This document shows positions 11,218 through 35,529 of a stretch of DNA of 39,485 bases, piece by piece; positions within the stretch are counted from its first letter, which is position 1, and each line of letters starts with the position of its first letter. The stretch is taken from the NCBI GenBank assembly GCA_022616235.1, contig JAKEFC010000281.1:1-39485 (forward strand). Direction: 5' to 3'. This DNA is from Planctomycetota bacterium (lineage in GTDB: Bacteria > Planctomycetota > UBA8108 > UBA1146 > JAKEFC01). The notes below the pieces were generated by a model, which saw only the letters and a list, made by a program, of their open reading frames with translations, did no database searches and was not told the origin of the DNA. Position numbers and translations under genes: made by a program.

Positions 11218-11252
11218 GCGTCATTCCCCTCGACTGTCCCCCAAGGCAAGCG

Positions 11253-17977: not shown

Positions 17978-18487
17978 CTACTCGACGAAGATGTCCAGCA
18001 CGACTTCGAGCAGGCGCTGGCCAGGGCCGCGCCCAGCGGTCCAATGGATCTCCTGGATGCGGAGCGGGGCGGGAGTCACGGCGAGATAGTGGATGAACTG
18101 CACGTGCGCGGCCGGAGCGCCGCTCACCACGATGCGATGCCGCTGCCGGGGCGGCATCGCATCCGCGGGAGACGACTCTACGTTGCGAGATTCGAGCACT
18201 AATTGCAGCTCCTCGAGCCGCGCGGTAGTCCGCGAGAGAATCGCGGCAAGCTCGGCGCCGGTCGCCGGAGCCGAGGCAAAGCGCGCGAAGAGATGCTCCT
18301 TGAGCGCCGGCGCGGCTTCGAGGGTGCGAGCGGGAGGAAGCGGCCCCGCGGCCGCCGCGGTAGACGCGGGGAGGAGCGCGCGGATCGCGATCGCGAGGAG
18401 CGTGGCGAGGATTGCGGAGCCTTCGATCCATGCCCAGCGTTTCGATGGCGGAAGCAGCCGCTGCACGAGCATGACGCCGGTCGTCAT
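17978..18487 (-). CDS. PilO/GspM-like assembly protein
   Basis: 169 residues. A short cytoplasmic N-terminus and one membrane helix (about residues 20-40, IEGSAILATLLAIAIRALL) are followed by a helical linker (about 70-100) and a small alpha/beta domain ending in LLEVVLDIFVE. This is the layout of PilO and GspM, which dimerise in the periplasm and align the inner-membrane platform with the secretin. The sequence alone is too divergent for a firm family call, so the assignment leans on layout and on its place right after the PilM- and PilN-like genes. Its ATG overlaps the PilN-like stop by ATGA. Last gene of the secretion operon. Confidence 0.65.
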   Translation of the reverse strand: MTTGVMLVQRLLPPSKRWAWIEGSAILATLLAIAIRALLPASTAAAAGPLPPARTLEAAPALKEHLFARFASAPATGAELAAILSRTTARLEELQLVLESRNVESSPADAMPPRQRHRIVVSGAPAAHVQFIHYLAVTPAPLRIQEIHWTAGRGPGQRLLEVVLDIFVE

Positions 18488-19008
18488 CGCAGCACCTCGA
18501 GCTTGAGCGGCGGCACGACGTCCGCGCGCACGGTAAAGATCGGCTTGCCGCTCTTGGGGTCCCGCCGTACGGACACGGGAACCGCGTGCTTTAGCCAGGC
18601 GTAGCTTTCGAGGAACAACATGAGGTCGGGAACCGCCTGGACCTCATCGGTTTCTCCGCTGATCTCGAGTTGGTTCGTCGCGGCGCGGAAGTGCAGCGAA
18701 GTGATCGACCCGAGCGGCTCGAGAGTGGAGGGAAGCGCGGCGAAGAGCTGGTGCCAGGGCACCCAACCCTCCGCGCAGGCGAGCGCGACCGCCATCGGGT
18801 CTCCGGCGGGAATTTCGAAGTCGCCGCGAACGGCGAGCGGGGGCGGTGCCGCATAGGCGACCTGTGCCGGCGCCGCGCCGCGCGCGAGCAGGAACCCGAC
18901 TCCGCCGATCGCGAGCATGAGCGCGGAGGTGGCGATCACCGAAGGGAGGGCTTCAAGGCGTTCGACTCCGGCAGGGGCGGCGGGCAGCAAGTTGATCGTC
19001 TTCGTCAT
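18484..19008 (-). CDS. PilN/GspL-C-like assembly protein
   Basis: 174 residues. It begins with MTKTINLLPAAP; the I-N-L-L-P motif is the PilN signature for docking into PilM. One membrane helix (about residues 23-43) follows, then a periplasmic ferredoxin-like domain (LGSITSLHFRAATNQLEISGE and the LMLFLESY helix), as in PilN and the C-terminal half of GspL. It starts 9 nt after the PilM-like stop and overlaps the PilO-like start. Together these three should form the inner-membrane alignment complex. Confidence 0.78.
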   Translation of the reverse strand: MTKTINLLPAAPAGVERLEALPSVIATSALMLAIGGVGFLLARGAAPAQVAYAAPPPLAVRGDFEIPAGDPMAVALACAEGWVPWHQLFAALPSTLEPLGSITSLHFRAATNQLEISGETDEVQAVPDLMLFLESYAWLKHAVPVSVRRDPKSGKPIFTVRADVVPPLKLEVLR

Positions 19009-19017
19009 CGCTTCGCC

Positions 19018-19926
19018 TCAGTTGCCATGCGCGAGCAGCGAGCCGAACGGAAGGAACCAAGCGCCGCTCGCGGCCATCGATTCCGGCACCCCCGCCGGCG
19101 GCGGCGCCGCCGCGAGCACGTCGGTTTGGCAGGCGCGCGCTGCCTGCGCCAACCAGTCGCGATCCACGCTTCCCATGCCGCAGAGTCCGTCGATGGCGAG
19201 GAATGGGTGGCGGTCCTCGCACGCGAGGAGCGTCTCGCGAAGGTTGCGGATCCCTTCTTCGCCGTGCAGGGGGAGGGGATCGCCATCGCGCGGAATGCGC
19301 ACCGAGAGATTGCGGAGCGCAAGGGGCCGGCCTCGAGCGAACACGGCGGCCGCCGCGCTCCCCGCATCCGAGTAGACGCCCGCGAAGGAGCGCTCGCGGC
19401 GGTCGCCGAGCTTCGCAAAGTGACAGAACGCGCGAATCGCCGCGGAGAATGCCGGTTCGAGGCCGCGGAGCGGATGGGGGAGGCGCTGCGTCCATTCCTG
19501 CCAATGGTTCACCGCGGAGCGTCGGACGGCGATGAGCAGGCCCAAATGCGCGGCGCTCGCGGACATTTCGGTCGCGGGCGCGAGAATCTCGAAGTCGTAG
19601 ACGGGGTCGAGATCGCCGACGTGGAACATCTTCTCGGCTTCCCAGCGGGTCCCTTGCGCGAGATCGGCATCGGGAAGTGCAGGGAGCGTCGCGATCGCGC
19701 CGCGGACGGCGAGCGGTGCGACCACGGCCCACCGTACTCTCTTGTCGCTCAAGAGTTGGCGAATGCCCTCGGGGGGCGGGGGGAATACGCCCCCTTCGAG
19801 CGTGATCGTGCCGCCGGCGACGAGCGCCGGCTCCGCCGCCGGACCCTCGGCGATGAGCCAGTGGCATTCTCCCGGCACGAGCGCGATTGCGCCGCGGCGG
19901 TCGCGGCGAGCCCAATTCCACTTCAT
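19018..19926 (-). CDS. PilM/GspL-N-like cytoplasmic assembly protein
   Basis: 302 residues, no signal peptide and no membrane segment. By order (secretin, this gene, PilN-like, PilO-like) it sits where PilM or the cytoplasmic half of GspL would be. Visible features include VRWAVVAPLAVRGAIATLPALP, VYDFEILAP and LGLLIAVRRSAVNHWQEW, consistent with the actin-like fold of PilM/GspL that recruits the ATPase and binds the PilN N-terminus. Sequence similarity to the family is weak, so context carries much of the call. The start at 19926 overlaps the secretin stop by ATGA. The ORF track's 930-residue version is a readthrough of an antisense-like frame across the secretin gene. Confidence 0.65.
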   Translation of the reverse strand: MKWNWARRDRRGAIALVPGECHWLIAEGPAAEPALVAGGTITLEGGVFPPPPEGIRQLLSDKRVRWAVVAPLAVRGAIATLPALPDADLAQGTRWEAEKMFHVGDLDPVYDFEILAPATEMSASAAHLGLLIAVRRSAVNHWQEWTQRLPHPLRGLEPAFSAAIRAFCHFAKLGDRRERSFAGVYSDAGSAAAAVFARGRPLALRNLSVRIPRDGDPLPLHGEEGIRNLRETLLACEDRHPFLAIDGLCGMGSVDRDWLAQAARACQTDVLAAAPPPAGVPESMAASGAWFLPFGSLLAHGN

Positions 19927-21905
19927 GGCGTGAGCAGCTCCTCGAAGCGGACTCGGAGCGCGCGGAGCGCGTCCGAGCGGCGGCGATCCACATCCATCGC
20001 GCGCTCCGCTTCCCCGCGCTCGCGCACGATGTGCGGGGTCACGAAGATGATCAGCTCGGTCTTCTCCTCGACGGACTCGCGATGGCGGAAGAGCCAGCGG
20101 AGCAGCGGCACGCTGCCGAGGACCGGCACCTTGCGCACTTTTTCGCTCGTCGTCTGCTCGATGAGGCCTCCGATCACCGCGGTCTCGCCGGAGCGCAGGA
20201 GCACTTGCGTGTCCGCCTCCCGCGTGCTGATCACGGGAAATCGATTGTCCACCAAGTCCAAGAGCGCGCTCACGGCGGGGTGGATCACCATATGGACCCT
20301 GTCTCCCTCGGCAACCGTGGGGATTACGATCAGTTGGATCCCGATGTCTTCGTAGTAGGCAAGGGAGACGGTACGCACCGCCGTCTGCGGGTCGATCGTC
20401 TCCGTGGTGACCGGAAACTTCTGGCCGATGAGTATGCGCGCTTCGACGCTGTCGAGCGTCGTTATGTTCGGCTTCGAGACGATCTCCGCGTTCTCCGACT
20501 GGTCGATGAGTCGCAGCACCGCCGTGAGCTGATCCGCGGAGAGCGACCCGAACGTGAATCCGCTGGTGGTCGTGGGAAACGGCGGGAAGTAGCGGCCGCC
20601 GGCGGGGTCCCAAGGCAGCGTGTGCGGCCGCGTCGCTCCGGCGATCGACAGCACGGCGTTCCAATCGATGCCATGGCTGCGCTCGTCGTCCTTCGTGACC
20701 TGGACGATCACGACTTCCACTTCGATCTGGCGCGGCATCACGTCGAGAGCTTGAATGCGCTCGGCGATCGCCGTGACGATCTCCGGTCGATCCGTCACGC
20801 TGATCACCCGCGACCGCACGGACTCTCCCCGGTCGCGGGTGTCGTCTTGGGCGCGCTGCTCCGTGATCTTGCTGCCGAACTGGAATCCGCCATGCGGCGC
20901 CGGCGCGAAGCAAGTGATCTTCCCGGCGCCGCTCAGCATTTTCTCCAGATAGCGCTTCATGTCCCAACCGTCGACGAAGCGAAGGGAGAATTCCCTCGTG
21001 ACCAGCTCCTCCTGCGCCGACTTGCGGCTCGTGATCACGATCACGCCGTTCTCCTCGCGATAGGCGCAGTCCACGTCGCGCAGGATCAGCGCGAGCGCCT
21101 GCGGCCACGCGACCTTTTCGAGGCGCGCGTTGAGCAGCGCGGCGTGGGTGCCGCTCACGTAGACGTTGAGTCCGAGGGTCGCGTTGAGCAGCATCGCGAG
21201 GTCGTCGAGGGGATAGGCCTGCAGGCGCACGTTCACCGTGCCGTCGTCGTTCTTGGTGATTTCGCCGATCGCATCGCGGGGGGGGACATCGATGGTCGGA
21301 ATCAGATCGCGGATCACGTCGATGATCTGCGGCGAGTCGATGATCGAAAGGGTCCGTCCGACGTCGCCGCTCCCCGCCAGCGCTTCGATATGGCCGTTCT
21401 TGGAGAGGAGCGGCGCGAGGATCTGCTTCACCGCCACCGGGTCGCTGTAGCGAAGGCGTACGATGAGCGGAAAGCGCTCCGCGGCGAGGTCGTCGCCGCG
21501 GGGAAGGCGCGTCACGCGCAGGATGCCGTTCTCCTCCACCATCGCGTAGTTGTGCGCTTTGAGAATGCTCTGCAGCGCTTGGCGCCACTCGAGATTGGTG
21601 ATCTTGACGGTCACTTTCTCGGACAACGCCTCGCCGGTGACGAGGTTCACGTTGCGCTCGCGCAATATGAATTGGATGACGCTGCGCAGGTCGATGTTGT
21701 CGAAGTTCAAGGTGACGCGGTCGGCGGTGCTGGCCGCCGGCGGCGTCGCGGCGGGAGGCGGGGCGACCTGCGCCCCGCTTGGGTCCGCGGCGGCCACGAA
21801 GAACGCGCACGCCGCGAAGACAGGCACGATGCGCCGGCGCGCGGCTCGTTCCCTCCGCTGGGGGAGGCGACGGAGCAATGGGTCGTGCGGCGGCCGGAGG
21901 GGCAT
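19923..21905 (-). CDS. gspD: Secretin, outer-membrane channel (GspD/PilQ family)
   Basis: 660 residues. A long basic N-terminus with a signal peptide (IVPVFAACAFFVAAADPSGAQ) leads an STN/N0 domain (LNFDNIDLRSVIQFILRERN, about residues 66-130) and an N1-like module (VRLRYSDPVAVKQILAPLL). A second STN-like unit (VNVRLQAYPLDDLAMLLNATL) and another N-module come next, then the secretin core. The core signature is clear: VPVLGSVPLLRWLF near the C-terminus, followed by KTELIIFVTPHIV. It forms the multimeric outer-membrane gate for the pseudopilus. The start has AGGGAG upstream. It is preceded by a strong hairpin and coupled by ATGA to the PilM-like gene. Whether it is closer to GspD or PilQ cannot be settled by eye. 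Confidence 0.93.
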   Translation of the reverse strand: MPLRPPHDPLLRRLPQRRERAARRRIVPVFAACAFFVAAADPSGAQVAPPPAATPPAASTADRVTLNFDNIDLRSVIQFILRERNVNLVTGEALSEKVTVKITNLEWRQALQSILKAHNYAMVEENGILRVTRLPRGDDLAAERFPLIVRLRYSDPVAVKQILAPLLSKNGHIEALAGSGDVGRTLSIIDSPQIIDVIRDLIPTIDVPPRDAIGEITKNDDGTVNVRLQAYPLDDLAMLLNATLGLNVYVSGTHAALLNARLEKVAWPQALALILRDVDCAYREENGVIVITSRKSAQEELVTREFSLRFVDGWDMKRYLEKMLSGAGKITCFAPAPHGGFQFGSKITEQRAQDDTRDRGESVRSRVISVTDRPEIVTAIAERIQALDVMPRQIEVEVVIVQVTKDDERSHGIDWNAVLSIAGATRPHTLPWDPAGGRYFPPFPTTTSGFTFGSLSADQLTAVLRLIDQSENAEIVSKPNITTLDSVEARILIGQKFPVTTETIDPQTAVRTVSLAYYEDIGIQLIVIPTVAEGDRVHMVIHPAVSALLDLVDNRFPVISTREADTQVLLRSGETAVIGGLIEQTTSEKVRKVPVLGSVPLLRWLFRHRESVEEKTELIIFVTPHIVRERGEAERAMDVDRRRSDALRALRVRFEELLTP

Positions 21906-22006: not shown

Positions 22007-22636
22007 CTACCGATCGCCGCCGCCCGCAGCCGGCGGCAAGACCTGACGTTGCTCCCCGTATGGCTCGAACGGGAGCACGTATTCCTTGCCGTTCATTTCG
22101 ATGCAAACCTCGGCCTCGCGCACCGCGACCAGCCGCAACTTGGTGTCGAGCTTCTCTCCCTCGAAGATCACTTTCCCATCGAGGAGCGCGCCCCGCACGG
22201 CACCAGAATAATAGATGCCCCCCAGAGCGACGGGGCGGGGAGGCAGCTTGCGGGCACCGGTGCGCGCTCTTGCGCGCGCGGGCTCGGGAGTGCCGCCGCT
22301 CTGCAGCGCGAACGGATCGCCCTCGATCGCGACCTTGGGCAATTCCGTCGACATGGCGAGGACCCGCTCCAGCGCCTCCTTCTTGTAGCGGTATGCCCTC
22401 GGAGGCAATCCGCCCGGCGCCCCCGCTGGCGCGCCCGGAGCCGGCGCCGCCGCGGCTCCCGCAGCCTGCGTAGAGGTCTCCGTGCCGTTGGATCCGGCGC
22501 CAGGCGCTCCGGCGGCGGCCGCCGCTCCCCCCATGACCAGCCCGGCCGAATCGTTCCCGCGCATCGCCCAGGACAACAATCCGGCGCCGACGACCGCGAC
22601 GGTCACGAGCAGCAGGCGCTTCTCGCGCCGATTCAT
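22007..22636 (-). CDS. PilP/GspC-like periplasmic connector
   Basis: 209 residues. An N-terminal membrane helix (KRLLLVTVAVVGAGLLSWAM) is followed by a low-complexity Ala/Pro/Gly linker (about residues 35-80) and a C-terminal beta domain of about 60-70 residues (VALGGIYYSGAVRGALLDGKVIFEGEKL, ending EVCIEMNGKEYVLPFEPY). A G-G-I-x-x-S-x-x-x-x-A-L-L-[ND]-G-K pattern is the hallmark of the PilP/GspC HR domain that contacts the secretin. The start at 22636 overlaps the lipoprotein stop by ATGA; the ORF-track start at 23161 lies in the wrong gene. It stands directly before the secretin, as expected for a partner. Confidence 0.75.
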   Translation of the reverse strand: MNRREKRLLLVTVAVVGAGLLSWAMRGNDSAGLVMGGAAAAAGAPGAGSNGTETSTQAAGAAAAPAPGAPAGAPGGLPPRAYRYKKEALERVLAMSTELPKVAIEGDPFALQSGGTPEPARARARTGARKLPPRPVALGGIYYSGAVRGALLDGKVIFEGEKLDTKLRLVAVREAEVCIEMNGKEYVLPFEPYGEQRQVLPPAAGGGDR

Positions 22637-23190
22637 GGCGCACGCTCCGGCGGCAGCGCTTCGACCTCCGCCGCGAGCGCAGCGATCGCGGCGCGCCCGC
22701 TTGGATCCAATCCCGGATCGGCGAGCGCAGCAGCGAGCATCTCTTCCCCATCCGCATCGGCGCCGGTCAGGAACAAGAGCCAAGCCATCTCGATGCGCGC
22801 TCGCGAATCGAGCTTCGCTCCGCGCATTTGCATCTCGCGATAGAGCGCAAGCGCGTGGCGTGCGCCGTCGAGCAACCGCCGCCGCGCGCTGCGCTGTCGC
22901 TCGTTGCCAGTGGCGCCGCGATCCCGCTCCGAAGCGGCCAGCTCGAGCCACTCCGCGGCCTGCCAGCGCGCGAGCCGCGCGGTCGCGCGGGCGTAGTCTT
23001 GGAGCGCACCGGCGTCGAAGTCGCTCGCGGCGAGCCGCGCGCGAGCATGATCGGCATCGGCGGCGAGTTCCGGGGGCAGAGCCTCCCACGCCGCGTAGTA
23101 GTGCGGCAGCGTCGCGGCGCGCGGCGCCCCGCCGGCGCAGCCGAAGGCAGCGAGCGCGCAAGCGAGCAATGTGCCGCGGAGCGGGGTCAT
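22633..23190 (-). CDS. Small helical lipoprotein of the secretion operon
   Basis: 185 residues. A short signal sequence ending in AAFGC looks like a loose lipobox (lipid cysteine near residue 18). The rest is almost wholly alpha-helical and Ala/Arg/Leu-rich, with TPR-like character (YARATARLARWQAAEWLELA, ARIEMAWLLFLTGADADGEEML). It could be a pilotin-like or TPR-type assembly factor for the secretin, an idea based on its place between the kinase and the PilP-like gene. Both ends overlap neighbours by ATGA. No family recognised. Confidence 0.6.
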   Translation of the reverse strand: MTPLRGTLLACALAAFGCAGGAPRAATLPHYYAAWEALPPELAADADHARARLAASDFDAGALQDYARATARLARWQAAEWLELAASERDRGATGNERQRSARRRLLDGARHALALYREMQMRGAKLDSRARIEMAWLLFLTGADADGEEMLAAALADPGLDPSGRAAIAALAAEVEALPPERAP

Positions 23191-24491
23191 TCGCGTTCCT
23201 TCTCGTCGAGCCAGATCTTGAGCATCGAGCCGGGATCGTCGGAGGCTGGGGTCGCGAGGTAGGCGGCGACGCGGGGCACCACCTCGCGTTCGCGGTTCAG
23301 CTTGCCGGCGATTCTTACCAGCGCGTGGACGTACTCGATCCGGTCGCCGCACAGGTCGTGCGCTTCGCGGAACGATTCGTAGGCGTCTTCGAAATCGCCG
23401 CCGGCCTCGGCGGCGCGGCCGCGATGATGGGCGGCGGCGGCCTGAGCGATCGCGGCGAGCCGCGCCGCGTCGCCGTCCGAGGTCGCCGGGACCCCCGCGG
23501 TGCGCAGTGTCCCGAGCGCCTCCGCGACCCGCGTGCGGAGCCCCGCGAGCAACGAATCCAGCGCCCACGAAATCGCCGCGGCGAGGAGCGCGACCAGCGC
23601 GAACAAGGTCAGCACCCTGGTGCGGCGACGCGATCCCGGCCGAGCGGCGCCGGCGTCTTCCGGCGTGCAGGTCGCCGCCCCCGGCGGCGCCGCATCCCCG
23701 AGACAGGCGAGGACCTCCTGCATCGACTGCGGGCGGTCTCCCGGCGCTTTCTCCAAGCAACGGAGGATCAACTGTTCGCACTCGTGCGGGAGGTCGCGGC
23801 GCCGCGCGCGCGGGCTGGCCGGGGCGGAACGGCGCTGCATCTCCAACAGGTCGTAGACGGATTCGGAGTGAAACGGCGGGACGCCGCACACCAGCTCGTA
23901 AAGCATCACCCCGAAGGAATAGATGTCCGTGCGGTGATCGAGCGCGGTGCCGTCGCACTGTTCCGGGCTCATGTAGGCCGGCGTGCCGACGACGTTGCCG
24001 GTGGCGGTCAGCATCGTCAGGCCTTCGACTTGCACCAGTCCGAAATCGAGCAGCTTCGCCGTGTCGCCGGCGCAGACGATGACGTTGCTCGGCTTCAGAT
24101 CGCGGTGCGTCATCCCCCGTTCGTGGATCGCGGCCAGCGCGCGGGCGACCTGGCGCGCGAAGGCGAGCGCCGACGGGAGCGGCAGGCGGACGCCGTGCGT
24201 GCGCATCACGCGCGACAGCGGGACTCCCTCCAGGAATTCCATCGCGAGGTAGTGCACGCCCTCGCGGCAACCGACCTCGAACACGCGGACGATGTTCGGG
24301 TGGTCGAGGGACTTGAGCGCCTGGCCTTCGCGCTGAAAGCGCCGCGAGGTGATCGCGTTCACCATGTGGGGGAGAAGGATCTTGATCGCGACGCTGGCGC
24401 CATCGGCGTTGCGCAGCGCGCGATAGACGACCCCCATGCCCCCCTTGCCGACCTCGCGTTGGATCGTGTAGCCGGGAACCTGAGGATTCAT
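23187..24491 (-). CDS. Membrane Ser/Thr protein kinase (PknB type)
   Basis: 434 residues. All kinase motifs are present: glycine loop VGKGGMGVVY (about 14-23), catalytic Lys 37 in VAIK, HRDLKPSN (Asp 131), DFG at 149-151, and the activation segment GTPAYMSPEQ. A Pro/Ala/Arg-rich juxtamembrane region leads to one membrane helix (about 290-312, LTLFALVALLAAAISWAL) and an exported C-terminal domain of about 120 residues with TPR-like helices. It should phosphorylate Ser/Thr on cytoplasmic targets. Likely candidates are the FHA kinase and secretion ATPase of the same operon, which is inference. It is coupled by ATGA to the response regulator before it and the lipoprotein after it. Confidence 0.93.
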   Translation of the reverse strand: MNPQVPGYTIQREVGKGGMGVVYRALRNADGASVAIKILLPHMVNAITSRRFQREGQALKSLDHPNIVRVFEVGCREGVHYLAMEFLEGVPLSRVMRTHGVRLPLPSALAFARQVARALAAIHERGMTHRDLKPSNVIVCAGDTAKLLDFGLVQVEGLTMLTATGNVVGTPAYMSPEQCDGTALDHRTDIYSFGVMLYELVCGVPPFHSESVYDLLEMQRRSAPASPRARRRDLPHECEQLILRCLEKAPGDRPQSMQEVLACLGDAAPPGAATCTPEDAGAARPGSRRRTRVLTLFALVALLAAAISWALDSLLAGLRTRVAEALGTLRTAGVPATSDGDAARLAAIAQAAAAHHRGRAAEAGGDFEDAYESFREAHDLCGDRIEYVHALVRIAGKLNREREVVPRVAAYLATPASDDPGSMLKIWLDEKERE

Positions 24492-25468
24492 CGCGCCACT
24501 TTGTCCTTGAGCAGCGCGAGCGGCGGCGCGATCTGCGTCGCGAACACTCTGAGCAGCATGGAGAGGTCGCGCTGGGCGGCGGTCGCATCGCCGGGCACGA
24601 CGAGGAATCCATGTACTTCGCTGCCCGCGCGGAGCGGCACGAGAGTGAACGGTCCGGAGGACTCTTCTCCTCCGCCCAGCTTCAGCGCGAGGCGCGGCAG
24701 CGCGGGCGCCTGGGCGGGCTGCACGATCGCGACTTCCCCCAGCAGCGCGAGATCTACGCCAAGCTCCTCCGCAGTGAATTCGCAGTCGGACGGCACTTCG
24801 GCCGCATAGCCCGGAGCGCGGACCAGGCGCCAGCCGGCGCCGTTGCGCGCGATCAAGAGCCCGCGTGGGACCTCGAGCTGCAGCCGCAGCATGTCGGCGA
24901 CGAGGTCGAAGAGCGGCTCGACCGCTTCCACCTCGCCGATCATGCGTCCGGTCTCGCAGAGGAGCTCCAGCTCCGCGACGCGGCGCCGCAGTTGGCCGTT
25001 CGCGTTCTTCAGGTCGCAGTTGATCTCTTGGAGATCGCGCGCCAGCGCCCGGTTGGCGAACAAGAGCCGCCTCCGTTCGAGGGCCTTCCGCACGATCTTG
25101 AGCAGGTCCTCCTCGAAATTGAGGATCGGCTTCGTGACGTAGTCGTACGCCCCGAGACGCATCGCCTCGACTGCGGTCTGCAGCGTCCCGTTGCCGCTCG
25201 CCATCAGGACTTCGACGTCCGGATAGCGCCTCTTGATCTCGCGCAGAAGCTCGACGCCGTTCATCCCCGGCATCACGATGTCCAGGATCGCAATGTCGAT
25301 CTGCTCGCGTTCCAGGATTACCAGCGCCTCGGTTGCATTCGCGGCAACGAGGACTTGGAACCCCTCCGTGGCGAAGTAGAGCTCGATCGCCTCGCGAATG
25401 AACGACTCATCGTCCACCACGAGGAGCTTCTCGCTCTTCGCGCTCGTCCTACGGACCGCCAAGCTCAT
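24488..25468 (-). CDS. Response regulator: REC domain, coiled coil and GAF-like domain
   Basis: 326 residues. The receiver domain (about 14-130) has the acidic pair VVDDE at 19-20, phospho-acceptor Asp 63 in AILDIVMPGMNG, a Ser in place of the usual Thr in LMASGNG, and Lys in YVTKP. A coiled coil (about 135-180) follows, then a GAF-like domain (about 180-315). There is no DNA-binding or enzymatic output, so signalling is probably by protein contact. The ORF track's longer version starts in unrelated frame; ATG 25468 has GAGAA-like sequence upstream. Its likely partner is the FHA-histidine kinase at the head of the same operon. Confidence 0.85.
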   Translation of the reverse strand: MSLAVRRTSAKSEKLLVVDDESFIREAIELYFATEGFQVLVAANATEALVILEREQIDIAILDIVMPGMNGVELLREIKRRYPDVEVLMASGNGTLQTAVEAMRLGAYDYVTKPILNFEEDLLKIVRKALERRRLLFANRALARDLQEINCDLKNANGQLRRRVAELELLCETGRMIGEVEAVEPLFDLVADMLRLQLEVPRGLLIARNGAGWRLVRAPGYAAEVPSDCEFTAEELGVDLALLGEVAIVQPAQAPALPRLALKLGGGEESSGPFTLVPLRAGSEVHGFLVVPGDATAAQRDLSMLLRVFATQIAPPLALLKDKVAR

Positions 25469-25517
25469 CGCCGAATTCTCGTTCCCACGGCGCTCCGCAG
25501 GGGAGCGCCCGGACTCG

Positions 25518-25937
25518 CTAGTAGCTCGACCACGCCACGCCGTACGCGTCGTTCCCAGCCAGATTGGGGCGGACGTCGCCGCTCGCGGGGATGTAGACCC
25601 AGCCACCGGTGCCATCCACGATGGCGACCTCGCCGTTGGTCTTCGTGATTCCGTCCGCCGGCACTTGCGGCAGGTAGTTGGGCGACAGCGCGGCGAGCGA
25701 TCCGGGCCGCGAACCGTTGTTGTCGGAGCGATATGTTTGAATCGCGGTTCGCAGCATCTGCAGGTTCGCCTTCGTCGTGGAGGCTCCGCTTCTGCCGACG
25801 TAGTCGACATAGTTCGGGACAATGATTGCCGCGAGCACGCCGATGATCACGATCACCATGACGAGCTCGATAAGAGTGAATCCCTTTCGGGACCTTGGAG
25901 GTAACACGGGGTGTGGGCCTTTCCAACAGCGAGTCAT
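25518..25937 (-). CDS. gspG: GspG-like major pseudopilin
   Basis: 139 residues. A basic leader of 19 residues ends in SRKG, followed by the type IV pilin N-terminus FTLIELVMVIVIIGVLAAIIVP with Glu at +5, the site cut and methylated by prepilin peptidase. The mature part has the GspG layout: LQMLRTAIQTYRSDNNGSRP helix, YLPQVPADG, then GGWVYIPASGDVRP near the C-terminus. It builds the pseudopilus. The start at 25937 overlaps the gspF stop by ATGA. No prepilin peptidase and no minor pseudopilins lie in the window. Confidence 0.92.
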   Translation of the reverse strand: MTRCWKGPHPVLPPRSRKGFTLIELVMVIVIIGVLAAIIVPNYVDYVGRSGASTTKANLQMLRTAIQTYRSDNNGSRPGSLAALSPNYLPQVPADGITKTNGEVAIVDGTGGWVYIPASGDVRPNLAGNDAYGVAWSSY

Positions 25938-27175
25938 CGTGGACCAAATCCACGGGGGATCTCCGCGAGCGGAATGAATATGCTCGCGGCGATCAGTCCG
26001 ACTACCACGGTCATGAGCACAATGATCAAGGGCTCGAGGATCTTCGGCAGCACGCGTATGGTGCGCTCCACGTCGCGATCGTAGAAGCGCGCCACGTTGC
26101 CGAGCATGTCTCCGAGGCTGCCCGACTCCTCGCCTACGGACACCATCGTCGAGACCATCGGCGGAACGTGCGGCGAGCGCGCCAACTCCTTGCCGAGAGG
26201 CGCTCCCTCCTTGAGGTTCGCTTCGACGCCCTGCATGAACTCTTCCAACGGGATGTTGCGGAGACCCGTGCGAGCGAGTTCGAGGCTCACCAGCAAGGAG
26301 ACTCCGCTGCTCTGCAAGAGCGCGAGGGTCTGGCAGAAGCGCGCGAGGACCAGCTTCGTGTAGAGGGGTCCGATCACCGGGCAGGTGAGCAGGAAGCGAT
26401 CGAATACCCTGCGCGAGGCGCGCACGCGCAAGGCGCACAATCCCGCGACCGCCGCAACCGCCCCTCCAATGGCGAGCGCGGGAAGATACGCCCGCAGCGT
26501 GGTGCCCAGCGTCAAGAGCGCGTTGGTCACCCAAGGCAGCTCCATCTTGAGCTGGACGAAGACTTTCGCGATGCGCGGCAGCACGAAGGAGATGAGGAAG
26601 ATGGTGACGGCGGTGCATGCCGTGACGAGCACAGTGGGATAGGCGAGGGCGCCCCGAATCTGCGAGCGCGTTTCCATCTGCTTTTCGCCGTAGCGAGCGA
26701 GGTCCTCGAGAACCTTGTCGAGATTGCCGGACACTTCGCCGACGTCGATTAGGTGCACGTAGTGCTTCGGAAAGAAGCGGGGGAATCGCTGCAGGCTGTC
26801 GGCGAACGACTCGCCTTTCTCCAGCGTGCCGATCACTCCATTGAGTACTCTCGACCACTGTGGATCGCCCAACTGTCCTTGCACGACTTGCAACCCGCGA
26901 ATGAGGGGAACTCCCGCGTGCATCATGGTGTGCAGATACCATGTGAATGCTACGAGGTCGCGCGTGCGGGAAGATTGCGTGCCAGCGGCGGGGTGCGTGG
27001 GCCTCACGACGGTGCGCGGCTCGCCGATGGTGCGACTCTGATGCTGGCGGCACTCGATCACGAAGCCGTCGACGCGTGCCAGGAACTCCGGCAGCTTCGA
27101 CTCCGATGGCACGGTGAGCAATTGCTCCTCCGTGGCACCGTCTGATCTTCGCACCTTCGCGAGATAGGTCGGCAT
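25934..27175 (-). CDS. gspF: GspF/PilC inner-membrane platform protein
   Basis: 413 residues with the two repeated T2SSF domains. The first is around residues 75-190 (FTWYLHTMMHAGVPLIRGLQ ... LIDVGEVSGNLDKVLEDLA) and the second around 280-395 (FCQTLALLQSSGVSLLVSLE ... SVGEESGSLGDMLGNVA). Three membrane helices are visible, near 190-210, 240-262 and 385-408. It anchors the GspE ATPase and drives pseudopilin assembly. The ATG at 27175 (MPTYLAKVRR) is chosen over the ORF-track start at 27214 because family members begin this way. Coupled to gspG by ATGA. Confidence 0.93.
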   Translation of the reverse strand: MPTYLAKVRRSDGATEEQLLTVPSESKLPEFLARVDGFVIECRQHQSRTIGEPRTVVRPTHPAAGTQSSRTRDLVAFTWYLHTMMHAGVPLIRGLQVVQGQLGDPQWSRVLNGVIGTLEKGESFADSLQRFPRFFPKHYVHLIDVGEVSGNLDKVLEDLARYGEKQMETRSQIRGALAYPTVLVTACTAVTIFLISFVLPRIAKVFVQLKMELPWVTNALLTLGTTLRAYLPALAIGGAVAAVAGLCALRVRASRRVFDRFLLTCPVIGPLYTKLVLARFCQTLALLQSSGVSLLVSLELARTGLRNIPLEEFMQGVEANLKEGAPLGKELARSPHVPPMVSTMVSVGEESGSLGDMLGNVARFYDRDVERTIRVLPKILEPLIIVLMTVVVGLIAASIFIPLAEIPRGFGPR

Positions 27176-27233
27176 CCGATGGCTCTTCGATAGGGAATGA
27201 CGCACCGCGGCCAACGAGCGCGCGGCGCGACGG

Positions 27234-27350
27234 CCGGAACTCCGAAACCTGGACTTCTCCCTCTTCTAAGTCAAACATCCGGCGCGGTGTACGTCCAACG
27301 GGAGACGCGCGGCGTGGTGCGCTCTAGAGGGGGTTCCGGTAACTCCGAAC
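27234..27350. repeat. Pair of near-identical 15-bp motifs in the gspE-gspF gap
   Basis: CCGGAACTCCGAAAC (27234-27248) and CCGGTAACTCCGAAC (27336-27350) share CCGG-(T)AACTCCGAA and are about 100 bp apart on the same strand. They sit in the unusually long 242-bp gap between gspE and gspF, where most neighbours overlap. They could be a protein-binding pair or chance. Confidence 0.25.
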
Positions 27351-27388
27351 GGGGGTGAGCGTTGCATGGCTGGGCACGGAGCGGCGAG

Positions 27389-27418
27389 GGGGCTCTGCGA
27401 AGGCCCCTTTGGAGCCCC
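27389..27418 (-). terminator. Hairpin at the end of gspE
   Basis: GGGGCTC and GAGCCCC form a 7-bp stem at the gspE stop codon, with a possible small inner stem (AAGG/CCTT). There is no T-tract after it. In an operon, partial termination or mRNA processing between gspE and gspF is plausible. Confidence 0.4.
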
Positions 27419-29085
27419 TAGAACGCCTCGTGGTGGCGCACGGTCTCGCAGACCTCTTCGATCGTCGTGGTCCCCGCGAGCACCTTGGCCCGCCCATGGT
27501 CCACCAAGCGCTCGAAGCCCGGGATCTCGCAGCCTTCATCCATCGTGTCGGCGAGGATCATGCGCTTCGCTTCGCGCGTGGGCGTCAGGATCTCGTAGAT
27601 TCCCGTGCGGCCGCGATAGCCGGTCTGATCGCAGTGCGCGCATCCCTTGCCTCGCGAGTACGCGCCGGGCGTGCCCGGGGCGATGCCCACGAGGCGCAAG
27701 GCGTCTTCATCGGGCGTGTCGGGGGCTTTGCAGTGGGTGCAGACCAGGCGCACCAGCCTCTGGGCGATGACCGCCGCGATCGATGATGCGAGCAGATACG
27801 GGGCGATCTTCATGTCGCGCAAGCGAGCGTAGGAGCTGGGCGCGTCGTTCGTGTGGAGGGTCGACAGCACGAGGTGGCCCGTGAGCGCCGCCTTGACCGC
27901 GATGGAAGCGGTCTCTTCGTCGCGCATTTCGCCGATCATGATGATGTCCGGGTCCTGGCGCAGGATGGATTTGAGCCCGGAGGCGAAATCGATCCCGGCG
28001 CGCCGGTTCACCTGGATCTGGTTGATGTTCTCCATCTGGTACTCGACCGGGTCTTCGATCGTAATGATGTTCTTGGCCTTCGAGTTCAAGAAACGCAGCG
28101 CGGAATAGAGCGTCGTTGTCTTGCCGCTGCCGGTCGGTCCAGTGACGAGGATGATCCCGTAGGGGCGCGTGAGCACTGCGCGGAACCTCTGCTCCTGCTC
28201 GGGAGATAGGCCGAGCTGATCCAAGGCCGGTAACGCCGCCTCGTTGAGGATCCGCATGACGACTTTCTCGCCGAATACGCTCGGAATCGTCGAAACCCTC
28301 ACGTCGATGCGTCCGGTGCCTAGCCTGAGCTTCATCCGTCCATCCTGGGGCATGCGCTTCTCCGCGATGTCCAGCTCGGAGAGGATCTTGATGCGGCTCA
28401 CGATCGCGTTATGGAAATGCTTCGGCGGCCGCAGCACCTCCTTGAGGACGCCATCCACTCGGAATCGAATGCGAGTTACGGCTTCCTCCGCCTCGATATG
28501 GATGTCGGAAGCGCTGTTTCGGCACGCTTGCACGATGATGTGATTCAGCAGGCGAATGACGGGCGCATCGTCCGCGTTATCCGGGCCGGATTCGAGCACG
28601 TCGTAGGGCTGCAAGACCTGCACCTCTTCATCCTCGGAGGGTGCCTGCTCGAGGAGGGATTCCACGATGGTCTTGCTCTGATCGGAGTCGGATCCGTAGG
28701 CCTCGGCGAGAGCATCCGCATTAATCACGGTACGGTCGAAGTTGGACCCGAAGCGGAAAGCGATGTCGTCCGAGAGTTGGACCTGATAGGGGTAGGCGAG
28801 TCCGAACGCGACCCCCTGCGGATCGAGGGGAACGGCGCCGTGCTCGCGGAGGAATTCCTGCGTCAGCTCTCCGGGTGGCGCGAATTGCTCGGGAAGCGCC
28901 GCTTGCATCGGCAGCCCCGTGTCCTCGCTTACGAACCTCTGCAGATCCGCGGCGTTGAGAACGCCGCGGCTTCGAAAGGTCTCGAGCAGGGAAGCGCGCC
29001 CCTCCGGGAAATCGGCGGGAACCTCGAGGGGCGCGTCTTGCTTGAGGAACGCGCGCAGCCTGTCGATCAGTCGCGGGCGCGCCAT
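27418..29085 (-). CDS. gspE: GspE/PilB assembly ATPase
   Basis: 555 residues. An N-terminal GspE-N/MshEN-type domain (about 1-130) is followed by the ATPase core. Walker A is GPTGSGKT at 316-323, the Asp box is IITIEDPVEYQ, Walker B is DIIMIGEMRDEETA (about 380-393), and the His box is LSTLHTNDAPSS. The four-cysteine zinc site is complete: CTHC at 449-452 and CAHC at 482-485. It powers pseudopilus assembly from the cytoplasmic face. The ATG at 29085 shares one base with the stop of the FHA kinase (TGATG). The ORF-track N-terminus beyond it is in the kinase gene. Confidence 0.95.
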   Translation of the reverse strand: MARPRLIDRLRAFLKQDAPLEVPADFPEGRASLLETFRSRGVLNAADLQRFVSEDTGLPMQAALPEQFAPPGELTQEFLREHGAVPLDPQGVAFGLAYPYQVQLSDDIAFRFGSNFDRTVINADALAEAYGSDSDQSKTIVESLLEQAPSEDEEVQVLQPYDVLESGPDNADDAPVIRLLNHIIVQACRNSASDIHIEAEEAVTRIRFRVDGVLKEVLRPPKHFHNAIVSRIKILSELDIAEKRMPQDGRMKLRLGTGRIDVRVSTIPSVFGEKVVMRILNEAALPALDQLGLSPEQEQRFRAVLTRPYGIILVTGPTGSGKTTTLYSALRFLNSKAKNIITIEDPVEYQMENINQIQVNRRAGIDFASGLKSILRQDPDIIMIGEMRDEETASIAVKAALTGHLVLSTLHTNDAPSSYARLRDMKIAPYLLASSIAAVIAQRLVRLVCTHCKAPDTPDEDALRLVGIAPGTPGAYSRGKGCAHCDQTGYRGRTGIYEILTPTREAKRMILADTMDEGCEIPGFERLVDHGRAKVLAGTTTIEEVCETVRHHEAF

Positions 29086-30776
29086 CAGGAATCCCGGGAG
29101 CCCTGTATGACCGCCGGTTGGCGGGGCGGAACGGCATCCGGAGCGACCCCGAGCTGGCGGCTGGGCAGATGGATCTGGAACGTCGAGCCGGTCCCCGGCC
29201 GCGACGTCAATTCGATCTTCCCTCCCGACTCCAGAACGATTCGGCGCACGACGAAGAGTCCGAGGCCGGTGCCGCGATCGGAGGCTTTGGTCGTGAAGAG
29301 CGGCTCGAAGATCCGCTCGTGCAACTCTGCGGGGATCCCGGGGCCGTTGTCCGATACCGCGATCGTTGCCCCTTCGTCCTCGCGTCGTGCGACGACTTGG
29401 ATCTGGCGCGCTCGCTCCGTATCGACCTCGCAGAGGGCGTCGGCCGCGTTCGTGAGCAGATTCATGAGCACCTGCTGCAAGGCGCTCGGATCGCCGCGCA
29501 GCGTGAGCCCGTTGGGCACGTCGATCGCGACGCGCGCGCCGCAACGCTGGAGGGCAGCGTCGCAAATGTTGATCGTAGCGTCCACCGTTGCGCGGACGTC
29601 GTAGTCTTTCGATGCCGGGCTGCCGCCTGGGCTCTGGCGCGCGAATGCCAGCAGGTTTCGGCTGAGCGCCTGGCAATAGTCCGCGGCATCGTGCGCGCGC
29701 GAGAGATAACGTTTCAGCTTTTCCACGGCCTTCTCATCGATGCTCTTCGCCGCAAGACGCGTCGCGAGATCCAGAAAGCCGATGAGGCTGCTCAATGGGT
29801 TGTTGAGGTCGTGCGCGAAGCCGCTCGCCAGGCGGCCGATCGCTGCCATCTTCTCCGTACGCACAAGATCGCTCTGCGAGCGCCGGAGGTCTTCGAAGGC
29901 CCCTTGCAGCCGCAGGTAGAGATCGATGTTCTGGAGATCGACTTGAAGGTGAAGCGCGATTACCACGATCTGCTCCAGGTCCTCGCGGCGGAACGGCTCC
30001 ATCTCGGGTCCGCGGTCGAGATAGAGGACGTTTTGCTCGTTATTGGCCGCGTTGATCGGCACCGCGAGCGCGGAGCCGATCGCCGCATCCGCCGAATGGG
30101 GGTCGTCCGGGCAATCGCGGGAACCGGCGATCAGCCCGGTGCGGCTGCGGGTGGCGCGCTCGATGAGGCGCGAGCAGCGCAGGATCTCGGCGGCGCCCAC
30201 GGGCCGCCCCAGGCGCTCGCCGATCACCGCCGCCGGTTCGGTCGCTCCTTGCTTCCACGTCAAGAGCGCCCAAGTCGCGAACGGGACGCTTTCGGCGAGG
30301 ATCTGCATCGCTTTGCCGATGAACTTCGCGGGAGGGAGCGCCGGATCCGCGATGAGGCCGAGTCGAAACAAGACTTCCTGCAGGCTCTTGCGCCCGGGCG
30401 TCAATTGCGAGCTGGAGCGCAGAGTGAGCTCGATGGTCTCGCGGTTCACCGCGAGCGCGATCTCGGGGTTCGCGGAGCCGCTCGCTTCTGGAAGCATCTG
30501 ACAGAGAATCTCCGTGGAGCCGATGCGAATCACGTCGCCGTCCTTGAGCAAGGCGGTCGTGATTTCTTTCTCGTTGACGAGCGTGGAATTGGTGCTCTGA
30601 AGGTCGCGGCAGATCCAGGTCCCGTTCTCCGCGGGCTCGATGAGGGCGTGTTGCCGGGACGCCCGCGAGTCATCGAGGCGGATCGTGCAGCTCGGATCGC
30701 GTCCGATCGTGACCGTGCGGCCGTCGGAGTTGAAGATCTGGCCGCGCCGTTTGCCGCTCCGGATCACGAGCTTCAT
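29085..30776 (-). CDS. FHA-GAF-histidine kinase
   Basis: 563 residues, no membrane segment. The N-terminal FHA domain (about 1-95) has the phosphothreonine-binding residues in place: GR at 25-26, SRASRQH at 37-43 and STNST with Asn 63. A GAF-like region (about 150-280) and a short coiled coil follow. The HisKA helix holds His 322 in GFAHDLNNPLSSLIGF. The ATPase domain has NLLTNAADAL, DNGPGIP, FTTK and GTGLGLF. It should be a cytoplasmic sensor kinase tethered to a phosphothreonine protein. The Ser/Thr kinase and REC protein of the same operon are obvious partners. Start supported by GGAGG 8 nt upstream. Coupled to gspE. Confidence 0.93.
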   Translation of the reverse strand: MKLVIRSGKRRGQIFNSDGRTVTIGRDPSCTIRLDDSRASRQHALIEPAENGTWICRDLQSTNSTLVNEKEITTALLKDGDVIRIGSTEILCQMLPEASGSANPEIALAVNRETIELTLRSSSQLTPGRKSLQEVLFRLGLIADPALPPAKFIGKAMQILAESVPFATWALLTWKQGATEPAAVIGERLGRPVGAAEILRCSRLIERATRSRTGLIAGSRDCPDDPHSADAAIGSALAVPINAANNEQNVLYLDRGPEMEPFRREDLEQIVVIALHLQVDLQNIDLYLRLQGAFEDLRRSQSDLVRTEKMAAIGRLASGFAHDLNNPLSSLIGFLDLATRLAAKSIDEKAVEKLKRYLSRAHDAADYCQALSRNLLAFARQSPGGSPASKDYDVRATVDATINICDAALQRCGARVAIDVPNGLTLRGDPSALQQVLMNLLTNAADALCEVDTERARQIQVVARREDEGATIAVSDNGPGIPAELHERIFEPLFTTKASDRGTGLGLFVVRRIVLESGGKIELTSRPGTGSTFQIHLPSRQLGVAPDAVPPRQPAVIQGSRDS

Positions 30777-30862: not shown

Positions 30863-31552
30863 TCAGCTTCCCGACGCCACGAGGCTGTCGATCATCCCTT
30901 GAATGTCGCCGATCGCCACTTTGCGCGAAGGCGCAGGTGGCGCGGGCGGCGGACTTGCATCGGACACTTTCGCGCCGGCGCCGCCGGCGCCGCTGGCGGC
31001 CGCGGCGGGGGTCGCGGGGCGCGCGGAGATCCCGTGCACCTCGCGCGCGAGCAGGTCGAGCCGCTCCAAGATCTCCTCGCACTTCGGCGCCGACACGGCG
31101 GCTTCGATCTGCCGGGGCAGCACTCGAATCGTGTCTTCCAAGTCGCGAATGCGCGAAGTGAGCGCGGAGAGCGGAGAGTCTTCGCCGCCGCCGGCGAGGA
31201 GCGAGGGGTCGGCGGAAATCGGCTGAGGCGCCGCGGCGCGCGGGAGGCTCGCGCCGAGCGCAGGGGTGCCCACGGCTTCCGCGACGTTCGAGGCGAGCGC
31301 GGCGAACGCCGTGACGAGGCGTTGCCGAACGGCTGGATCGTCGAGCGGCAGCTCGGCGATCGAAGGAAAGCGCGCGATCCCGCGCGCGAGCTTGGCGAGC
31401 TCGCCGTCGACGCGCGCCAGCACTTCTTCGTCGCAGCACGGAGCCTGCGGGCGCGGGCTCGTGTCCTGCGGCGGCTCATCGGAAGCGAAGCCCGGGAGGC
31501 GCGCTCCGCTCTCTACGTTCTCGAGTATCTGCTGGAGGATTGTGCTCGCCAT
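30863..31552 (-). CDS. Hypothetical helical protein upstream of the FHA kinase
   Basis: 229 residues; not recognised. The N-terminal half is helical (MASTILQQILENVESG; EVLARVDGELAKLARGIARF). The middle holds a short coiled-coil segment (ALTSRIRDLEDTIRVLPRQIEAAV). The end is a long Ala/Pro/Gly linker with a terminal helix (DIQGMIDSLVASG). It is soluble by prediction. It lies 86 nt upstream of the FHA-histidine kinase on the same strand and may be the first gene of the secretion operon. Antisense frames overlap it, but this frame has the most natural protein composition. Confidence 0.55.
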   Translation of the reverse strand: MASTILQQILENVESGARLPGFASDEPPQDTSPRPQAPCCDEEVLARVDGELAKLARGIARFPSIAELPLDDPAVRQRLVTAFAALASNVAEAVGTPALGASLPRAAAPQPISADPSLLAGGGEDSPLSALTSRIRDLEDTIRVLPRQIEAAVSAPKCEEILERLDLLAREVHGISARPATPAAAASGAGGAGAKVSDASPPPAPPAPSRKVAIGDIQGMIDSLVASGS

Positions 31553-31651: not shown

Positions 31652-32623
31652 CTACAGCGCCCTGAGCAACTCCGCCTTCAACGCGGGAACGATCTCGAAT
31701 AGATCGCCGACGATTCCGTAGTTTGCGATCTGAAAGATCGGCGCGTTCTTGTCCTTGTTGATCGCGACGATGCAGCGGGAGCTGGACATCCCCGCGAGAT
31801 GTTGCACGGCGCCGGAGATCCCGCAGGCGATATAGAGCTTGGGGCTCACCGTTTTACCGGTCTGTCCGACCTGATCCGAATGGGGCCTCCAGCCGGCGTC
31901 CACCGCGGCGCGCGACGCGCCGACGACGCCGCCGATGGCGGCGGCAAGCTCCTCGAGGAGCGCGTAGTTTTCCGGACCTTTCAGGCCGCGCCCTCCGGAC
32001 ACGATGATCTCGGCTTCCGTGAGGTCCGTCTTCTTCCCCGCCTCGGCGATGACTTCCTTGACGCGGACGCGCAGCGCGCCGTCATCGTAGGGTGGACTCC
32101 ACGGAACGACTTCCGCGGGAGGGGCGGGATCGGCAAGCGGGCGGCCGTAGTTCGCGCGCAAGGTCGCGATGAACGGCGGCCGCGTCAGATCCACGGTGAG
32201 CAGCGCCTTGCCCGCGAATACGGGTCGCTCCAGCCGCAGGCGGTCGCTCTGCCACTCCAGCGCCGTGCAGTCCGATGCGACCGTCACGCCGTGCTCGGCG
32301 CCGGCGTACGCCGCAAGCTCGCGCCCCATTGCGCTGGCGGTGAGGAGCAGCGCGCCGATGCCGTACGCCGCCATCGCCTTCGTTACGTCGTGCGCGAGGG
32401 CATCCCCCGCGGGCCGGCGATAGATCGGAGCGTCCCCGATGAGGAGCTTGTGTGCTCCGCGCGTGCGCGCCGCCTCCGCGATCCCCGCGATGCCTTCACC
32501 GAAAGCCATGGCGATCACCTGCGCGCCGCGCGCATCCGCGAGGCGACGCGCCTCGCCCAGAAGTTCCAGCGCAGCGCGTTTCAATTCGCCGCCGCGATGC
32601 TCCAAGAGCACGAGGATGTTCAT
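31652..32623 (-). CDS. etfA: Electron transfer flavoprotein alpha subunit
   Basis: 323 residues, normal for EtfA/FixB. It starts MNILVLLEHRGGELKRAALELL and has the family's C-terminal FAD-binding domain: VSGGRGLKGPENY, GASRAAVDAGW, QVGQTGKTVSPKLYIACGISGAVQHLAGM and INKDKNAPIFQIANYGIVGDL. With EtfB it accepts electrons from acyl-CoA and related dehydrogenases and passes them to the quinone pool. The start at 32623 is set by the family N-terminus; the ORF-track start at 32710 lies inside repeat C. No ETF-quinone oxidoreductase is visible here. Confidence 0.95.
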   Translation of the reverse strand: MNILVLLEHRGGELKRAALELLGEARRLADARGAQVIAMAFGEGIAGIAEAARTRGAHKLLIGDAPIYRRPAGDALAHDVTKAMAAYGIGALLLTASAMGRELAAYAGAEHGVTVASDCTALEWQSDRLRLERPVFAGKALLTVDLTRPPFIATLRANYGRPLADPAPPAEVVPWSPPYDDGALRVRVKEVIAEAGKKTDLTEAEIIVSGGRGLKGPENYALLEELAAAIGGVVGASRAAVDAGWRPHSDQVGQTGKTVSPKLYIACGISGAVQHLAGMSSSRCIVAINKDKNAPIFQIANYGIVGDLFEIVPALKAELLRAL

Positions 32624-32831: not shown

Positions 32832-33584
32832 CTAGATTACCTTCGCTTCCGCGCGGAGCAGCCGCACGAGCTCCGGCACCGCGGCGACCCCTTCTCCAAC
32901 GATTCTTCCCGCCTTGCGCGCCGGGGGCGGCGTCAGCGAGACCACCTCCGCGGTGGCGGGGAACTCGCGCGCCGCGACTTCGCGGAGCGGCTTCTTCTTC
33001 GCGGCCATGATTCCCTTCAGAGATGGGTAACGAGGTTCGTTGAGCCCCTTCTGTGCGGTAAATGCCGCCGGCAGGGAAACCTCCACGACTTCGCGCGACC
33101 CTTCGACCTCGCGCTCCGCGCAGGCTGACCCGGCCGCGACGGTGAGCTTTACGATCTCCGTGATACAAGGGATCCCGAGCAAGCGCGCCGTCATGGGCCC
33201 GACCTGGCCGCGCTGGGCATCGACGCTGGCGCGGCCGAAGAGGACGATCTCCGGCTGCAGCTCCTGGAGCGCAGCGGCCAAGTTTTTCGCGGTCTGGAGC
33301 GCGTCGAGACGCGCTCCGTCGTGACGAATCAAGATCGCGGAGTCCGCGCCCATCGCGAGCGCCTGGCGCAGATTTTGATTCGCCGCTTCGGGACCTAGGG
33401 TCAGTACGAATACTTCGCCCGCACCGAGCTTCTCCTTCGCGCGAATCGCTTCCTCGACGGCGAACTCATCGTACGGGCTAATGATGTATTGGACATCGGC
33501 GGTGTCGATGGTCTTGCCATCCGCCGCGATCCGAATCTTCGTCGCGGTGTCGGGTACTCGCTTCAGGCAGGCGGCGATTCTCAA
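32832..33584 (-). CDS. etfB: Electron transfer flavoprotein beta subunit
   Basis: 250 residues, normal for EtfB/FixA. Family motifs: CLKRVPDT near the N-terminus, ISPYDEFAVEEA, LTLGPEAANQNLRQALAMGADSAILI and the AMP-site region LFGRASVDAQRGQVGPMTARLLGIP, then PRYPSLKGIMAAKKKPL. The start codon is TTG, preceded by GGAGAGGT at good spacing. It is the first gene of the etfBA pair and has a promoter candidate about 40-70 bp upstream. The gap of 208 bp to etfA is large for this usually tight pair and is filled by repeat C. Confidence 0.95.
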   Translation of the reverse strand: MRIAACLKRVPDTATKIRIAADGKTIDTADVQYIISPYDEFAVEEAIRAKEKLGAGEVFVLTLGPEAANQNLRQALAMGADSAILIRHDGARLDALQTAKNLAAALQELQPEIVLFGRASVDAQRGQVGPMTARLLGIPCITEIVKLTVAAGSACAEREVEGSREVVEVSLPAAFTAQKGLNEPRYPSLKGIMAAKKKPLREVAAREFPATAEVVSLTPPPARKAGRIVGEGVAAVPELVRLLRAEAKVI

Positions 33585-35362: not shown

Positions 35363-35386
35363 GGCGCGCGCTTTCGATAAGAAGTG

Positions 35387-35422
35387 CCTCGGAGGGCCAC
35401 GAAAGCGTGATCGTGGCCGAGG
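35387..35422. terminator. Hairpin between the rluA-like gene and the hybrid kinase
   Basis: GGCCACG and CGTGGCC form a 7-bp stem, with flanking CCTC/GAGG extending it past a 3-nt bulge. It lies about 108 bp beyond the rluA-like stop and 25 bp before the kinase start. No T-run. It could be a terminator or leader structure. The rest of the 167-bp gap shows nothing clear. Confidence 0.35.
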
Positions 35423-35529
35423 ATACAGAATTCTACGATGAAGCCCGGTGCGCGCGTGCATTGCGGCCGCGCTCGACGGCGCGAAGCTAGCTTCCCGGCA
35501 CTGCGGCTGGCGGGATCCCGAGTCCAGCG

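Follow-up and report, generated by a model that had tools for sequence, protein, structure and literature searches.

A type II secretion-like gene module probably inserted into a conserved two-component gene cluster of a planctomycete

A probably composite operon

The window analyzed here, a stretch of 39,485 nucleotides from a planctomycete (GenBank assembly GCA_022616235.1), is one whole contig (JAKEFC010000281.1) of a draft metagenome-assembled genome (MAG; 3.1 Mb, 290 contigs, 80% complete). Its minus strand carries an operon in which genes resembling those of a type II secretion system (T2SS) stand between the gene for a histidine kinase (HK) with an FHA domain and the gene for a response regulator (RR) of the REC-GAF type, the latter being followed by a Ser/Thr kinase (STK) gene. 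We consider it probable that this operon is composite and that a divergent T2SS-like module was inserted into an old, conserved two-component cluster, separating the HK from the RR. Operon anatomy, conservation, and the placement of the module were read directly from the genomes, while insertion as the direction of change is what we infer from them.

Open reading frames and Pfam matches give the gene order FHA-GAF-HK, GspE, GspF, GspG-like pilin, REC-GAF, and STK, continued downstream in the same operon by genes for a lipoprotein, a GspC-like protein, a secretin, and PilM-like, PilN, and PilO-like proteins (Table 1); the HK and RR genes are thus nonadjacent in the window itself. A preliminary description of this DNA had already reported secretion genes interleaved with three signaling genes, several of them sharing overlapping codons, and its coordinates were reproduced by open reading frames, Pfam, and the DNA itself. 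However, the operon extends beyond the range given there, downstream to the PilO-like gene (17978) and upstream to the EtfBA genes (33584). The HK stop codon and the GspE start codon overlap as TGATG, and ATGA overlaps join REC-GAF to STK, STK to the lipoprotein, the lipoprotein to the GspC-like protein, GspD to PilM, and PilN to PilO. Nonoverlapping junctions occur between GspE and GspF (a gap of 242 nucleotides), between GspG and REC-GAF (about 50 nucleotides), and ahead of GspD (101 nucleotides). Sigma-70-like sequences upstream of EtfB and of the giant PQQ protein are consensus matches only.

Conservation of the kinase-regulator pair

The comparison set comprised 16 other genomes of the same order and 12 of the same class, the window representing the only genome of its family. 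Among GTDB representatives, 16 MAGs, mostly titled Planctomycetota, Planctomycetes, or Planctomycetia, contained a full orthologue of the FHA-HK; these overlap with the order and class genomes, and neither count is therefore independent of the other. Two MAGs titled Bacillota and Proteobacteria (L091 and L097) carry the planctomycete cluster and are probably misnamed records.

In the same order, the cluster consists of HKRR783 (where present), EtfB, EtfA, FHA-HK, REC-GAF, the PQQ giant and, later, MlaE. The REC-GAF gene lies directly downstream of the FHA-HK gene in 15 of the 16 MAGs (with TMED53 split across L100 and L118), and in 12 of the 13 junctions that were read, the end of the HK gene shares bases with the start codon of the RR gene (as TGATG, ATGA, or GTGA). 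Because the two genes are adjacent, and mostly overlapping, in these relatives, their products very probably form a cognate pair. The REC-GAF protein of the window belongs to this family by reciprocal best hit: the REC-GAF protein of L047 finds it as the top match in the window's genome (125 bits, versus 67 for the next), and it in turn finds the cluster REC-GAF protein in those same-order genomes that possess one. Elsewhere in the class, REC-GAF genes of other families stand ahead of the PQQ giant gene, in many cases adjoining an HK with receiver domains (e.g., in L044). The cluster from EtfB to MlaE is conserved in this planctomycete order, and the combination of REC-GAF and the PQQ giant is conserved in the class.

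In none of the 16 MAGs did gspE, gspF, any other gsp gene, or an STK gene occur beside or between the HK and RR genes, and none was found at the corresponding loci of the order and class genomes. The preliminary description had proposed to look for the signaling genes beside gspE and gspF in related genomes, and had itself named their absence from that position as the outcome contradicting its model; the count is 0 of 16.

A separate observation concerns the region a few kilobases upstream of EtfB, where L085, L087 to L093, L095, and L097 to L100 have an accC-like gene with two or three divergent genes for pseudopilins close by. GspG-like matches in this region correspond to these genes and not to gspE or gspF, and were set aside.

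Signaling domains and putative phosphotransfer

The FHA domain of the HK scores 71.6 bits in Pfam against a cutoff of 20.7. FHA domains bind phosphothreonine through GR, SxxH, and NG motifs (PMC1262709); in the window, these are represented by GR at residues 25 and 26, SRQH at 40 to 43, and N63, with NS in place of the usual NG. R26, S40, H43, and N63 are invariant across 11 aligned sequences, and the FHA, HisKA, and HATPase_c domains are present in all 11 aligned HK orthologues (a GAF domain in several). The earlier view that the FHA domain is intact was thus borne out, in spite of the NS substitution. H322 and the ATPase boxes of the HK are intact, with H322 invariant in the aligned orthologues, and D20, D63, and K113 are invariant in the REC-GAF alignment, Asp63 and Lys113 being present in the window; the two proteins thereby have the residues expected of a two-component pair (HisKA His, HATPase boxes, REC Asp and Lys). 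Asp63 had been proposed before as the phosphoacceptor, which is correct provided that translation of the RR begins with the ATG at 25468. The STK has its catalytic Lys, HRDLKPSN, and DFG motifs.

For the REC-GAF protein, Pfam returned Response_reg and a subthreshold GAF match. Its structure model (pLDDT 83.5, pTM 0.52) consists of a REC domain, a 60-residue helix, and a GAF-like domain; the best PDB match was a fragment of a dual-sensor histidine kinase, and RssB and the type IX regulator PorX were also among the matches. Neither Pfam nor the model revealed a DNA-binding or AAA+ domain, in agreement with the prior claim of an RR without DNA-binding output. Since the model contains only these three elements, output is probably exerted through protein contact.

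Taken together, the resident part of the operon would be the FHA-GAF-HK and the REC-GAF protein, lying in an EtfB-EtfA-HK-RR-PQQ giant-MlaE cluster, and the part inserted in the window's lineage would be gspE-F-G on one side of the RR and STK-lipoprotein-gspC-gspD-pilM-N-O on the other. By position, the STK would belong to the inserted module, having either come with it or joined it. In the likely course of action, a phosphothreonine read by the FHA domain would recruit or tune the soluble HK, which would autophosphorylate at H322; phosphotransfer to Asp63 of the REC-GAF protein is likely. The REC-GAF protein would then change its dimer state through the long helix and act, by direct contact, on a target outside the secretion machine. 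Conservation of the pair with other genes points away from the secretion machine as its ancestral target, and if the pair does control secretion, this would have been added in the window's lineage alone, at least via the shared transcript.

Identity and origin of the secretion module

The T2SSE, T2SSF, N_methyl, and Secretin domains all score above their Pfam cutoffs, as expected for type IV filament or T2SS-like systems in general. In contrast, the NCBIfam T2SS equivalogs were missed by GspE (571 versus 630 bits, TIGR02533), GspF (312 versus 424), GspG (55 versus 89, TIGR01710), and GspD (229 versus 351). By these profile scores, the module belongs to the type IV filament superfamily and is closest there to the T2SS, without being a canonical T2SS.

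The GspE protein of the window shares approximately 39 to 52% identity with its relatives, being no closer to any one of them than to each genome's several paralogues. In a tree of 46 GspE proteins, those of the class fall into four clades (one of pilB, two of tandem GspE, and one of T2SS type); the window protein is a lone long branch outside all four, its exact position being unsure. Its best matches reach 42 to 52% across 392 genomes of the phylum and at most 46% over the full length in 41 genomes of other phyla, which are thus no closer than the phylum, and this GspE search of both sets did not find a donor of the module. No PilM relative was found in the 28 order and class genomes, and the 392 phylum genomes gave only noise at about 20 bits; a structure model of the PilM-like protein, made without an alignment, was unusable (pLDDT 35).

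Weighing the readings

Several points weigh against insertion. Recent import of the module was considered, but the codon usage test gave no signal: the module matches the resident genes in codon usage and GC content (p = 0.29), which speaks against a recent arrival and leaves room for long coevolution. Since the module surrounds REC-GAF, its placement requires either a second insertion or a rearrangement in addition to the first. The pair is also not strictly obligate, as L097 (which matches genome G006) keeps the FHA-HK orthologue, followed directly by the PQQ giant (9896 to 16798), and has lost REC-GAF, its best RR match being 38%. Moreover, a single genome stands for the window's family in the sample, too few to date the arrangement or to see whether it recurs.

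The path assumed by the preliminary description, in which the STK autophosphorylates, the FHA-HK docks onto it, and phosphate passes to the REC-GAF protein, which acts directly on the GspE/GspF/PilM machine, fits the overlapping codons and the probable single transcript that unites all the genes, the intact FHA domain, and the lack of a DNA-binding domain in the RR. It also resembles the type VI secretion system (T6SS), in which an STK and an FHA protein (PpkA-Fha) govern the secretion machine posttranslationally (PMC3953482); however, that system works without an HK or RR, whereas the STK-FHA link in the window is only proposed. The pairing of the HK with the REC-GAF protein survives from this path, but its two ends find no support in conservation. 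No relative examined has gsp genes or an STK gene beside the pair, and HK and RR are conserved instead with EtfAB and the PQQ giant. Furthermore, the window's genome contains 17 FHA domains and 12 STK matches at E ≤ 1e-30, among them an FHA-STK, an FHA-GAF-sigma54 activator, an FHA-GAF-HD protein, and an FHA-oxidoreductase, and because both kinds are so abundant, the colocation of one FHA domain and one STK is weak evidence that the kinase docks at its neighbor. We regard this path as rather unlikely, and we are equally doubtful that the module captured the resident pair in the window's lineage and rewired it into an STK-FHA-HK-REC-GAF path acting directly on the T2SS-like machine.

It is unlikely, too, that the module was ancestral at this site and was lost in all other families. 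While its codon usage is fully adapted and several of the relatives' HK/RR junctions share the TGATG form of the HK/GspE junction, independent losses would be required in families f2 to f6, GspE falls in none of the class's own clades, and the phylum sample yielded no clear PilM relative. Finally, an assembly chimera of two unrelated contigs is very improbable: although the window is a whole contig of a 290-contig draft and its join is unconfirmed by any close relative, genes of the module take turns with resident ones, TGATG and ATGA overlaps fall exactly at HK/GspE and REC-GAF/STK, and GC content and codon usage are uniform.

Comparison with known systems

The preliminary description knew of no described system with the gene content of this operon. 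EspA, PpkA-Fha, and PilS/PilR each match part of the proposed wiring and none matches the whole. Our literature search returned nothing on T2SS, FHA, and HK combined in planctomycetes. EspA of Myxococcus xanthus, encoded at the espAB locus, is an HK with an N-terminal FHA domain, as in the window, and is thought to interact with STKs (PktA5/PktB8). PktA5 works together with EspB and a partner kinase, in a complex that may interact with EspA (PMC4320627). Unlike the HK of the window, EspA is of the hybrid type, with a receiver in the same protein, and controls MrpC turnover in development, without secretion genes. The NCBIfam EspA model is the top match of the window's HK, but over the kinase part only and at 173.9 bits versus a cutoff of 1400, which places the protein outside the EspA family.

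PilS/PilR resembles the window in that HK and RR genes lie within a pilus operon, pilB-pilT-pilC (PMC6211767), and loci of this type are present in these planctomycetes, including the window's genome (L074, L165, L167, L169, L179, and L180). PilR, however, belongs to the NtrC-type activators and has AAA+ and DNA-binding domains; the REC-GAF protein has neither, so the pair does not belong to PilS/PilR. We know of no PilS with an FHA domain.

Closer to home, an STK gene lies upstream of gspD/gspE/gspF/gspG at a separate locus in 13 of the 18 related genomes searched. Nine such loci were read (L065 to L072 and L083), all with an FHA-domain protein between the STK and the secretin, in the order STK, FHA-(GAF)-sigma54 AAA+-Fis helix-turn-helix (HTH) protein, exported protein, gspD, gspE, gspF, and gspG. 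Pfam identified an FHA-(GAF)-sigma54 activator-HTH architecture in three of the nine, which the remaining ones match at at least 42%. These FHA-sigma54 activators (FHA-EBP) share with the window an FHA-GAF module and an STK adjoining T2SS genes, but differ in their sigma54 transcription output, their locus, and their GspE clade. Among the GspE proteins placed in the tree, none from the window's 80%-complete genome falls in the clade of this T2SS locus. An STK and an FHA protein beside a T2SS-like locus is, by gene content, a class-wide theme, with a predicted output that is transcriptional rather than two component; we found no description of it in the literature searched.

Genes of the window

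TABLE 1 Features of the window and two further FHA genes of the same genome
Feature	Position	Strand	Basis or remark
Two-receiver histidine kinase, upstream of EtfB	33731-36082		Relatives at same place in several class members
EtfB, electron-transfer flavoprotein beta	32832..33584	-	Pfam ETF; synteny: kept upstream neighbor of FHA-HK
EtfA, electron-transfer flavoprotein alpha	31652..32623	-	Pfam ETF/ETF_alpha; synteny: kept neighbor
229-amino-acid protein without Pfam match	30863..31552	-	Sole relative in L097 (47%)
FHA-GAF-HisKA-HATPase histidine kinase, phosphoacceptor H322, no predicted membrane segment	29085..30776	-	Pfam; alignment
GspE/PilB-type ATPase, Walker A, Walker B, two CxxC pairs	27418..29085	-	Pfam T2SSE, 462 bits; TIGR02533; tree
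GspF/PilC inner-membrane protein	25934..27175	-	Pfam T2SSF
GspG-like pseudopilin, start codon approximate	25518..25907	-	Pfam N_methyl; TIGR01710 below cutoff
REC-GAF response regulator, putative phosphoacceptor Asp63	24488..25468	-	Pfam Response_reg; alignment; model; reciprocal best hit
Hanks-type Ser/Thr kinase, membrane helix 293-311, C-terminal region of ~120 amino acids	23187..24491	-	Pfam Pkinase, 177 bits; motifs
Small putative lipoprotein, signal LACALAAFGC	22633..23190	-	ATGA overlap with STK
GspC/PilP-like protein, N-terminal membrane helix	22007..22636	-	Position and sequence only
Secretin GspD/PilQ	19923..21905	-	Pfam Secretin, STN, N0
PilM/GspL-cytoplasmic-like protein	19018..19926	-	Position only; no Pfam match
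PilN-like and PilO-like pair	17978..19008	-	Weak PilN match; ATGA overlap
Giant exported PQQ/BamB beta-propeller protein	12581..17590	-	Pfam PQQ_2; synteny: after REC-GAF in relatives
FHA fused to FAD/NAD-binding, 2Fe-2S oxidoreductase, window's genome	L004:187-1965		Same gene: L183:1456-3234
FHA-GAF-HD protein, window's genome	L006:232-2037

Biological meaning

The class-wide loci suggest phosphothreonine control of T2SS transcription, and that control of T2SS-like machines by phosphothreonine is common in these planctomycetes. In the window, wiring of the pair to secretion is possible, although conservation lends it no support. The FHA-HK/REC-GAF pair itself is a conserved candidate meeting point of Ser/Thr and His-Asp signaling, and the secretion module, naturally inserted between the genes of the pair as we propose, would allow a test of whether operon capture rewires signaling.

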